From the NCBI GenBank assembly GCA_029267335.1, contig JAJUJC010000005.1:1-64000 (forward strand): a DNA stretch of 64,000 bases, written 5' to 3'. Below, piece by piece: positions 3,201 to 8,315 of this stretch. The position numbers and the translations under genes are program-made. Position 1 is the first letter of the stretch. Every line of letters begins with the position of its first letter. Under the pieces are notes generated by a model that saw nothing but the letters and a program-made list of their open reading frames with translations, was not told the origin of the DNA and made no database searches. The DNA comes from Intestinibacillus massiliensis. Its GTDB lineage: Bacteria > Bacillota > Clostridia > Oscillospirales > Butyricicoccaceae.

Positions 3201-3796
3201 TAGCCCTGCCGCACATGCTCGAGAAAAGCATGCGGCTCGGGATGCGCCTGTATCTTATGATAGGTCTCCAAAATGACCTCGTGCAGCTGTTTGTCGTCGC
3301 GTCCCGCGGTCAGCAGATCACTCAGCGCGAGAAAAGCCGCGTCGCCCGCTTCATAGCGTGCTTCGAGCAGCGCTTCCATGGTCTCGTCGAGGATGGGACC
3401 GGTCTCGCTCTCGTCCGCGACGCGAAAATCCGGTGTCAGGTCAAGTGCGGCAAACTGATCGCGCGCGAGCGACAGACAAAACGCGTGGACCGTCGTAATC
3501 TGTGCGCGGTGCACAAGAAAGAGCTGACGGCGCAGCCGCTTATCCTCCGGCGCAGCCGCTGCACGGGCAGTCAGCGCGTCGGACAGCTTGCCGCGCAGCT
3601 CGGCGGCCGCGGCATTGGTATAGGTGACCATGAGAAAGCGGTCGATGTCGACCGGGTTTGTGTCGTCGGTCAGGCGGCGCAGTACGCGCTCAACGAGCAC
3701 GGCGGTCTTGCCGCTGCCAGCGGCCGCCGACACAAGCAGCGTGCCGCCCCGATTTTCGATCGCTTCGCGCTGCTCCTCAGTCCACTGTGTCGCCAT
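215..3796 (-). CDS. addA: ATP-dependent helicase/nuclease subunit A (AddA)
   Basis: AddA is the motor and 3'-strand nuclease subunit of AddAB, the Firmicutes counterpart of RecBCD, which resects double-strand breaks and loads RecA. The 1193-residue product has an N-terminal UvrD/Rep-type helicase with Walker A AAAGSGKT at residues 24-31 and the Walker B/DEAD-like VDEYQDTN, further SF1 motifs (for example ILYVGMTRARD), and a C-terminal RecB-type nuclease with GVIDCMIE and IVDFKND. The start chosen is the ATG at 3796, which has GGAGGGAGG about 8 nt upstream; an in-frame ATG at 3817 lacks a ribosome site. The first 20 nt overlap the end of addB, indicating translational coupling. Length and motif order are normal for the family. 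Confidence 0.97.
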   Translation of the reverse strand: MATQWTEEQREAIENRGGTLLVSAAAGSGKTAVLVERVLRRLTDDTNPVDIDRFLMVTYTNAAAAELRGKLSDALTARAAAAPEDKRLRRQLFLVHRAQITTVHAFCLSLARDQFAALDLTPDFRVADESETGPILDETMEALLEARYEAGDAAFLALSDLLTAGRDDKQLHEVILETYHKIQAHPEPHAFLEHVRQGYEQPIGALADTPHGKVLLEEARVAVEYGAGRLDRAIADMEGDDVLRDAYLPAFLADRARAGRLLDTIAAGDWDGAVAGAQEVAFDRLGSTRGYEDKEHLEALKALREEWKSVVKKLRERILCVTEAQAEDDRVRTAPAMGALIDAVEDFTAAYSAEKRRRGLVDFGDLEHFAIRLLYEGGQPSALARTLSRGFVEVLVDEYQDTNAVQDAIFRAVSDDGARLFMVGDVKQSIYSFRLANPYIFLQKYLTFTDAAQAGEGQPRRVVLSRNFRSRAQVLQAANAVFRAVMSASVGDVEYGAREALYPGADYPDAENPCYDTEVCVVDLSKDEDGNAPDKTEAEARVVAQRIAQLLHEGFLVYDKALGRQRPAVASDCTILLRSVKRKAAVYAAALEAVGLAAQTDDSTGLLAATEVRAVLSLLSVIDNPRQDIELIGALRSPLLGFTEQQLADIHLHARDACFYDALVLAAAEDEHAALFLQQLARWRLLAADLPMWQMIELLYDETGAMGIYGALPNGARRQANLLAFFERARAYEAQGHRGLFRFLCLVRGMLANGEDFPAPTPSADGGAVRILSIHKSKGLEFPVVFLADCAKTFNETDLYAPILVHSELGFGPKCRDMERGIQYPSLWRLAIAAQARREQVSEELRILYVGMTRARDKMVITCASGSAASSLRKWAPLAQEERIPPYALGAARSTALWLLAPLLRHPQAQPLRDLAGVTLAPAPDLPECFSFACVRVQSDEQNEQDQAENETAHEQTANALRVPATQPYEAAFLQDIPAKLTATGVKKGFKAEEASEDAPPAVKPERVLRRPFFDRAARGLTPSEVGTAHHLFMQFADFAACETVEGVQAECARLADKHILAREQADAIDASRIAAFFGSALYQEQMKRGRVRREFKFSVLAPAARFYPVAQSTPDEQVLLQGVIDCMIEHEDGMCIVDFKNDRVHAGNAAERAESYRAQLDAYAYAVEQIFDKPVKQKYLYFFATKQSYLLD

Positions 3797-7324: not shown

Positions 7325-7401
<77 letters not shown>

Positions 7402-7426
7402 TTTTCTTTTTAAAGTGCAATTACCT

Positions 7427-7502
7427 GCCTCTGTAGCTCAGTCGGTAGAGCAGGGGACTGAAAATCCCCGTGTCGGTGGTTCGATTCCGCCCGGAGGCAC
7501 CA
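7427..7502 (+). tRNA. tRNA-Phe (anticodon GAA)
   Basis: 76 nt with an encoded CCA. The anticodon loop is CTGAAAA with GAA between GGGGA and TCCCC arms, and the T loop is GTTCGATTC. It lies 25 nt after tRNA-Asp and 4 nt before tRNA-Gly. Confidence 0.97.
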
Positions 7503-7506
7503 ATAT

Positions 7507-7582
7507 GCGGCTGTAGCTCATCTGGTAGAGCGCCACCTTGCCAAGGTGGAGGTAGCGAGTTCGAGCCTCGTCAGCCGCTCCA
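7507..7582 (+). tRNA. tRNA-Gly (anticodon GCC)
   Basis: 76 nt with an encoded CCA. The acceptor arm GCGGCTG pairs with CAGCCGC, the anticodon arms are CCACC and GGTGG with loop TTGCCAA, and the T loop is GTTCGAGCC. The last 22 nt recur as a direct repeat at 7704-7725. Confidence 0.97.
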
Positions 7583-7725
7583 TCATCCAAGCACCTGTCA
7601 AATGACAGGTGCTTTTTTCATTGCTTGCGCTCGCTGCCTCCACCTTTTCAATCGAGGTGGGGTCCCCGTGAAAGCTCGTCTTTTACGGGGCGTGATAACG
7701 CGCTCGAGCCTCGTCAGCCGCTCCA
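7583..7725 (+). repeat. 143-bp structured segment ending in a duplicate of the tRNA-Gly 3' end
   Basis: The last 22 nt of tRNA-Gly (7561-7582, TCGAGCCTCG...GCTCCA) recur exactly at 7704-7725. Between the copies lie the tRNA terminator and two further hairpins: CCACCT/AGGTGG (7640-7660) and CCCCGTGAAAG/CTTTTACGGGG (7664-7690). The G-U pair in the latter forms only in plus-strand RNA. There is no credible gene. A 3'-end tRNA duplication can mark a site-specific integration scar or a small non-autonomous repeat; which one cannot be told from this window. Confidence 0.6.
7590..7618 (+). terminator. Terminator of the tRNA operon
   Basis: Arms AGCACCTGTCA and TGACAGGTGCT with a 2-nt AA loop are followed by six T residues, beginning 8 nt after the tRNA-Gly CCA. 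Confidence 0.9.
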
Positions 7726-7764
7726 AAAAGAAAAGCACCGATCGTTGATCGGTGCTTTTCTTTT
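7726..7764. terminator. Bidirectional terminator
   Basis: A perfect 18-bp inverted repeat (7726-7743 and 7747-7764) around a GTT loop, A-rich on the left and T-rich on the right. It can terminate rightward transcripts from the tRNA side and leftward transcription of the carbonic anhydrase gene, whose stop codon abuts it. Confidence 0.85.
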
Positions 7765-8315
7765 TATGGTGTGACCGCATCCAGCCGACCGGTTTCAGGA
7801 TCCATCAGGAATCCGTATACCGCGACATCTTGCGGAATCAGCGGGTGCGTCCGAATGGTTTTGACCGTTTCGCGCACCGAGTCGCAAGGATTTTCAAAGC
7901 CCTTGAGCCAGCGGTGCATATCCACGCCCAAATACTGCATGAGCGCAAGCTGCGTGGGATCGACGCCGCGTGCGGTCATTTTATCGACCAACGCCTGCAC
8001 GTTGAGGTTCTGCATACCGCAATCATAGTGATTGATGACCAGAATCTCTTCCACGCCCAGTTCGTAAATAGCGACGATCAAACTGCGCATGACACTGCCA
8101 AACGGATTGGTGATGAGCGCACCCGCGTTCTTAATCATTTTCACATCGCCGTTTTGCACGTTGAGCGCGGCGGGCAGCAATTCGGTCAGGCGCGTGTCCA
8201 TACAGGTCAAAATCGCAATTTTCTTGCTTGGATATTTGGTCGTATGATATTTTTCATAGGCTTTTTCCTCGACGAATGCGCGATTAAATCGCAAAATTTT
8301 CTCGATCTGTGACAT
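7764..8315 (-). CDS. Beta-carbonic anhydrase
   Basis: This zinc enzyme interconverts CO2 and bicarbonate in the cytoplasm and supplies bicarbonate for carboxylations. The 183-residue product has the beta-class ligands Cys38 in TCMDTRL and His96/Cys99 in NHYDCG, plus the Asp40-Arg42 dyad. Its short form resembles the minimal beta class found in Firmicutes rather than the longer plant-like enzymes. The start is preceded by GGAAAGGAAG. It appears monocistronic, with its own promoter at 8362-8390 and terminator at 7726-7764. Confidence 0.93.
   Translation of the reverse strand: MSQIEKILRFNRAFVEEKAYEKYHTTKYPSKKIAILTCMDTRLTELLPAALNVQNGDVKMIKNAGALITNPFGSVMRSLIVAIYELGVEEILVINHYDCGMQNLNVQALVDKMTARGVDPTQLALMQYLGVDMHRWLKGFENPCDSVRETVKTIRTHPLIPQDVAVYGFLMDPETGRLDAVTP

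Follow-up and report, generated by a model that had tools for sequence, protein, structure and literature searches.

What kind of sequence carries a second copy of the end of a tRNA gene just downstream of that gene, with a run of hairpins between the two copies? This question is raised by a window of 64,000 nucleotides, the whole stretch of DNA analysed here, in which ARAGORN calls a cluster of tRNA-Asp, tRNA-Phe and tRNA-Gly at 7325-7582. The last gene of the cluster, tRNA-Gly(GCC), is separated from tRNA-Phe by a gap of 4 nt and is followed, in this order, by a first terminator-like hairpin (T1), an antisense segment, a hairpin core, a second copy of the gene end and a second hairpin (T2) (Table 1). 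We consider it about an even chance (roughly 0.5) that positions 7583-7725 arose by insertion of a small, structured, non-coding unit at the tRNA-Gly 3' end and that this unit forms one class with units at other gene ends. The same layout recurs at other gene ends of related Clostridia, and therefore we treat all of these as one class. Overall, the evidence points towards an RNA element, mobile or regulatory, of a little-known kind.

Table 1. Features of the tRNA-Gly locus, in window positions
Feature	Position	Strand	Basis
tRNA-Gly(GCC), host gene, with the left repeat copy as its last 22 nt (7561-7582)	7507-7582	+	ARAGORN, sequence
T1, terminator-like hairpin (11 bp, 7589-7614) and T tract, between tRNA and unit	7589-7618	+	terminator scan, folding
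Segment antisense to tRNA-Gly 7543-7559 (3' side of anticodon stem, variable region, 5' side of T stem), one G·U	7630-7646	+	sequence
Stem B, CCUCCACCU with AGGUGGGG, 8-9 bp, alternative register possible	7637-7662	+	folding
Stem C, 11-bp core hairpin after GGGGT, one G·U, covaries in relatives	7664-7690	+	folding, alignment
Second copy of the tRNA-Gly 3' end, CCA included	7704-7725	+	exact repeat
T2, strong hairpin accompanied by A and T tracts, interpreted as the terminator of the locus itself	7726-7764	+	folding, empty-site comparison

An initial annotation of this DNA had reported that the last 22 nt of tRNA-Gly recur exactly at an offset of 143 bp, with three stems between the copies, and sequence comparison and folding reproduced both observations (the stems being the T1 hairpin, stem B and stem C). 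Simple arithmetic puts the probability of an exact 22-mer recurring by chance within 150 bp at about 1e-11. The terminator announced behind the second copy is indeed present and strong, except that it folds as 19 bp with a 3-nt loop (z -9.58) and not as 18 bp; a scan of the plus strand for terminator-like sites reported T1 alone and did not pick up T2. The annotation had made no mention of the antisense segment, which is the reverse complement of the body of tRNA-Gly over 17 nt with one G·U, or over 18 nt with two. In the better preserved units described below, this segment straddles the start point of the second copy. Direct-repeat pairs of at least 15 nt, spaced 60-350 bp apart, number 4 in the whole 64 kb on both strands together, and the tRNA-Gly pair is the sole one of them to enclose an antisense run of at least 14 nt with G·U allowed (control 0). 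Folded as RNA, 7630-7725 reaches z -2.87 on the plus strand versus -0.66 on the minus strand. At gathering scores, Rfam finds nothing in the window copy beyond the three tRNAs, and the 22 weak matches (E up to 1) belong to other families and fall mostly on the T2 hairpin. The next gene of the window lies on the opposite strand; the unit is therefore not a leader of that gene.

Filled and empty tRNA-Gly sites

A nucleotide search of the whole assembly returned one more full unit, on the minus strand at C4:232076-232253, again behind a tRNA-Gly, together with a truncated third piece at C4:231929-231987. The two genes that bear units are the only tRNA-Gly(GCC) genes among the matches listed for this genome. 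The window locus (contig C3) and the C4 locus agree at 91% over window positions 7502-7764, the similarity stopping at both sides, and the C4 unit has a T1 similar to that of the window. Three changes directly precede the 22-mer of the window copy, and the T stem of the second copy is intact at the C4 locus; the window unit thus looks somewhat decayed. Since the homology between the two units takes in T2, gene conversion or duplication of a whole tRNA cassette could explain one from the other. A wobble-tolerant scan of the window and about 425 kb of this genome (G000) found the two known units and no other (control 0). With the known C4 unit as the sole find in those 425 kb, the unit is not a many-copy repeat in this genome. 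In several genomes, truncated extra copies of T1 and antisense trail the full unit and end near the antisense, as do the piece at C4:231929-231987 (locus L039) and another at about 3589-3660 of locus L042; such copies suggest that a single site went through repeated events or through decay.

In the sister species (G001), the orthologous Asp-Phe-Gly cluster on contig C31 has a single tRNA-Gly end followed by a plain terminator, and no unit behind this gene. It shares its flanks with the window on both sides, namely an AddB-like gene and a gyrase/topoisomerase-A-like gene (names of the best NCBIfam matches, under curated cut-offs). The sister orthologue of the C4 locus, on contig C34 and with common neighbours on one side, likewise shows a single tRNA-Gly end and is empty. 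At tRNA-Phe, the sister species carries a unit whose core is of another type and which the window lacks. This unit lies between tRNA-Phe and tRNA-Gly at 2842-2961 of locus L044 (G001:C31) and contains a hairpin with a CCGGTGG-like loop.

Matches at the nucleotide level were sparse: among 295 genomes of the order, 7 (our own included) gave one to 7583-7725, all 7 with a unit behind tRNA-Gly. An exact pattern scan of one genome per species (84,980 species) gave 22 matches in 19 stretches on 17 contigs, all from Clostridia by their record titles, and four of these genomes were already known from the search of the order. Nineteen of the 22 matches lie 37-62 nt downstream of a tRNA-Gly(GCC), the remaining three being second units further downstream. 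In the window's family, a covariance model matched 37 of 87 genomes at E 0.01 and 12 of 87 at 44 bits or more. Eleven of these 12 have the unit at tRNA-Gly; the sequence of the twelfth locus stops too early to reveal a tRNA. Those matches below 44 bits that were inspected were dispersed cores, accompanied by a gene copy in some cases but not in others. In genus g27, matches at E 1e-6 occur in 14 of 42 genomes and a unit at tRNA-Gly in 12 of 42, after 5 of 22 matches without a tRNA in the locus had been set aside. A class-wide search at E 1e-6 returned four of 391 genomes: our own, G048 and two new ones, G644 and G660, which we dropped as plain dispersed palindromes with no tRNA in the locus. 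In a phage collection, 208 records match over at most 45% of the query; the best 20 of the 208 match mainly the tRNA part, and these records gave no lead on the unit. Across several families, the tRNA-Gly units follow a common plan, and in most units inspected the second copy equals the acceptor sequence of its host (exceptions are L072 and L078, where the copy is truncated, and L081, where there is none).

Pairing, strand and a possible switch

In an alignment of 41 distinct units, fitted to model R1 and hence leaning towards structure, stem C is paired at 98.7%, and 7 of its 12 pairs have changed on both sides. Its wobbles comprise 31 G·U versus 1 A·C, or 23 versus 1 when the 11 rows fetched by a pattern containing the antisense are removed. 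Since the pairing of stem C is kept by two-sided changes and its wobbles are G·U in preference to A·C, the alignment points to selection on an RNA read in the direction of the tRNA. For the structure as a whole, the share of paired cells is 93.2%, compared with 39-52% when the partners are slid by 1 to 3 columns, and 55 cells have changed on both sides against 3-10 in the slid versions. Pairs with a two-sided change number 9, compared with 3-7 after sliding and a mean of 4.8 after shuffling, 2 of 500 shuffles reaching 9. The rows include one without a visible tRNA (L090) and some that represent second or partial units. A MAFFT alignment of 7 units likewise shows stem C. Stem A, formed by the antisense and the copy, and stem B vary little and are therefore less informative; in stem B, 35 of 41 rows allow RCCUC to pair with GAGGU, and two registers fit. 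Sense-strand folding gave z-scores of -2.5 to -9.3 over 37 units, with the sense strand gaining more than its shuffles in 27 of the 37, although these 22 tRNA-Gly units and 15 others are in many cases related and are not independent.

The antisense segment likewise exceeds what controls give. Exact antisense runs of at least 15 nt were found in 17 of 252 distinct direct-repeat pairs (15 loci), while the longest runs in the reversed and complemented controls were 12 and 14 nt; these loci were fetched as matches, so that the count measures the layout and not its frequency. When G·U pairs were admitted at a threshold of 14, the sampled rest of our own genome gave 1 of 28 pairs beside the one of 4 in the window, each with a control of 0. 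In 383 kb of G048 and G218, partly picked around known units, the same scan gave 4 of 48 pairs (control 0): one at tRNA-Pro, one at EF-Tu and two in a single contig. The latter two (L259, G218:C74, about 109-500) are direct-repeat pairs 234 bp apart with a 14-nt wobble antisense. A census demanding 11 exact antisense nucleotides misses both units of our genome, and the scan that allows G·U recovers both. Within the alignment, complementarity of the antisense columns to tRNA-Gly is kept in 37-41 of 40-41 rows, even where these columns have no steady partner inside the unit. Without the 11 pattern-fetched rows, each column still pairs in 26-30 of 29-30 rows; the remaining rows were found with models or sequences of the unit, and thus this conservation is partly built in by retrieval.

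Such pairing might also serve the tRNA gene itself. The unit would then be a cis-acting RNA switch: transcripts stopping at T1 would yield normal tRNA, and read-through would give a misfolded RNA and less tRNA-Gly. This we find rather unlikely, and we judge in the same way its detailed form, in which the antisense pairs with the 3' half of the tRNA and the second 3'-end copy with its 5' acceptor strand. Folding of 7507-7765 gives a predicted minimum energy of -138.4 kcal/mol when the antisense duplex forms, versus -118.9 kcal/mol for the cloverleaf and the rest folded apart, a gain of about 19.5 kcal/mol, and a switch also fits the conserved antisense and the sense-strand wobbles. However, the layout is also found at protein genes, in which the copy plays no part of this kind; its presence within genera is patchy; and co-transcriptional folding would favour the tRNA first.

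Units at other gene ends and their possible movement

Besides tRNA-Gly, the layout was seen, whole or in part, at tRNA-Sec (L105), tRNA-Leu, tRNA-Phe, tRNA-Pro and, in L103, at a tRNA end not called by ARAGORN. The units at tRNA-Sec, L103, tRNA-Leu and the protein genes below were reached through weaker, dispersed matches of the covariance model. The tRNA-Leu unit (L095) lies about 220 nt past its tRNA, and tRNA-Pro, Phe, Asp, Cys and Ser show the arrangement of antisense plus copy, partial or whole, with other cores. The protein genes so marked encode EF-Tu, GroES, NusA, AspS, LepA, glutamate dehydrogenase, the beta subunit of a sodium-pump decarboxylase and OraE, where the names are the best NCBIfam matches of the C-terminal part (several under the curated cut-off, the last part alone being used). 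The antisense is clear at EF-Tu (19 nt), LepA (16 nt), NusA, AspS and the decarboxylase beta subunit, and weak (7-8 nt) at glutamate dehydrogenase and OraE; at groES, inspection of the copy found no clear antisense. Ribosomal protein S15 (L097) was rejected as a target, its core lying in the other orientation and no gene-end copy being seen. A repeat score of at least 40 was also reached by 4 of 180 control positions, and the repeat copies in L148 and L149 are not gene ends. At locus L132 (G013:C74:11258-11806), units are repeated in tandem with a period of 236 bp, and each of them includes a copy of the end of the LepA gene.

Within genus g27, the EF-Tu gene is empty in G355, has one unit in G218 and two in tandem in G369. 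In G218, the duplicated stretch measures 94 nt, is not identical throughout and runs from within the coding end through the terminator; its end coincides exactly with that of the terminator T tract, and there the antisense starts. Directly after the part that pairs with the antisense, the EF-Tu copies have a few bases unlike the gene. Between the units of G218 and G369, paired changes that preserve the hairpins can be recognized by eye.

Let the tRNA end be written as u-o-r, with u its upstream part, o the first part of the copied stretch and r the rest. In these terms, the order at the window locus is u-o-r, T1, antisense o'u', hairpin core, o-r, T2. In this notation, the incoming unit would have rebuilt the tRNA end on its left, leaving the duplicated end on its right, and it is because of such rebuilding that the tRNA gene would stay whole. 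We infer that the unit moves and that it is guided to its site by the antisense, which spans the insertion point. As hints of an RNA intermediate, one can name the sense-strand wobbles and the EF-Tu duplication ending at the T tract. We would prefer a scheme of copying from such an intermediate because the duplication in G218 ends where a messenger would end. Reverse transcriptase (PF00078) was not found in the unit-bearing genomes G273, G262, G367 and G001, and one was found in G000; Y1 transposase (PF01797) was not found in G000 (E 1e-5), G273, G337, G154 or G367. Neither family follows the units across their carriers, its absence from several of them speaking against a resident enzyme, and the search of these two families yielded no dedicated one. 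It is tempting to suppose, if only as a doubtful possibility, that these are minimal, gene-free, RNA-guided mobile elements. Each would be an RNA of 100-200 nt with an antisense arm pairing across its own insertion point; on insertion, the gene end would be copied, the host gene left intact and a guide and docking sequence gained from each target, with the enzyme supplied in trans.

One reading offered by the initial annotation, that of a small mobile repeat bearing a tRNA tail plus a terminator of its own, is supported in outline, as a putatively mobile element, by the second unit in the genome, the empty sites and size variation, the tandem units and the other genes involved. Relatives do not share one and the same single-copy segment free of size variation and dispersed copies, the pattern that the annotation had named as telling against it.

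Two further histories deserve to be weighed here, and we find each of them improbable. Accidents of replication or repair, with template switching at palindromes, could yield the inverted piece, the hairpin and the direct duplication together, functionless later. One can sketch the order of the pieces as a series of template switches, the palindrome of the core hairpin is frequent in these genomes, and neither of the two enzyme families tracks the units. Yet a single geometry recurs at many unlinked genes, and the two-sided compensatory changes with a G·U bias point to selection, which an accident does not give. Alternatively, a structured small RNA might have been born once beside tRNA-Gly and then inherited and lost, with gene conversion matching the copy to the tRNA and the look-alikes elsewhere being unrelated. 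The common plan of the tRNA-Gly units over several families would agree with this, as would the identity of the copy with the host's own acceptor sequence in most units inspected; against it stand the identical core motif and antisense geometry at other genes and the empty orthologous sites.

Known systems and the dispersed core hairpin

Integration of the integrase type leaves a direct repeat of the tRNA 3' end with CCA, and integrative elements at tRNA 3' ends keep the gene whole by duplicating its end. Our unit likewise sits at a gene 3' end and keeps the gene whole by end duplication, but it differs in its size of about 140-210 bp, its internal antisense to the target and its conserved RNA structure. 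That the locus is a scar or remnant of such an element, prophage or integrative, with the tRNA-Gly 3' end as its attachment site, or the excision scar that the initial annotation had proposed, is very improbable: the exact 22-nt repeat is the expected product of integration, but the segment is one short, conserved, covarying structure across many genera and genomes and not debris, its antisense is matched to the target, units also occur at protein genes, and the orthologous site of the sister species has no island, just a single tRNA-Gly end and terminator. The units viewed are all short, in scans that reached repeat copies up to 350 bp apart.

In group I and group II introns, a guide sequence pairs with both sides of the insertion point. 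The o'u' of the unit is contiguous and spans the insertion point, much as an internal guide or a delta-EBS1 pairing does; unlike these introns, the unit has no Rfam match to a catalytic core and carries a full replacement gene end, and we rejected both intron types for want of that core. T-box leaders and other tRNA-sensing RNAs are RNA structures complementary to a tRNA, as is the unit with respect to tRNA-Gly. The unit, however, lies downstream of the tRNA gene and matches no Rfam family model, on which ground a T-box or another Rfam RNA was also rejected.

Among the titles and abstract openings of the best literature matches (subscription papers being outside this scope), none describes the layout, which is no proof of its being unpublished. 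If the units move, their targeting sequence would be taken from the gene entered, unlike in any family compared here, and this might offer a point of departure for programmable insertion. Should they be immobile, they would represent an unlisted structured RNA with the potential to sequester tRNA-Gly and imitate its 3' end. In both cases, this is a repeated feature beside core translation genes in gut Clostridia, whose copy in the window has no Rfam match.

Another comparison is with small repeats of the REP, BIME and MITE types (e.g., RU-1 and ERIC; PMC2229807), which are short, non-coding, palindromic and dispersed. The unit is also short, non-coding and palindromic, and its core hairpin is dispersed. 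In contrast to those repeats, its arms are not constant and copy the target gene, and it duplicates 22 to about 94 nt of a gene end instead of a short random site. We regard the unit as a variant of such small repeat elements, and there is a real chance that it forms a separate kind. A MITE in the strict sense was rejected: constant terminal inverted repeats are lacking, as the inverted arms follow the target gene, and the target duplication is not of a few bp (22 nt here, 94 nt at the EF-Tu gene of G218). The REP type moved by a Y1 transposase is matched in its dispersed palindrome, a feature of the core motif and not of the window unit, and unmatched in its enzyme, no PF01797 gene having been found in G000.

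Searched as an exact pattern, which the window hairpin does not fit, the core motif was found in 28 of the order's 295 genomes, against 0 for the reversed-pattern control. The core hairpin GGGG-N-CCCCG is also widespread as a plain dispersed palindrome. A long direct repeat is missing at 22 of the 33 cores examined, so that core and unit may have separate histories. In genus g21, a GGGGTCCCCG hairpin with a GAGGAGGAAC-type flank lies, partly duplicated, inside an apparent RNase P RNA gene (L146-L149; gene recognized by eye). Near position 66029 of G293:C10 (L158), the core palindrome falls within what by eye is an apparent group II intron RNA. Finally, in L138 and L139 of family f19 the palindrome stands in tandem, 41-42 bp apart, with no gene copy.
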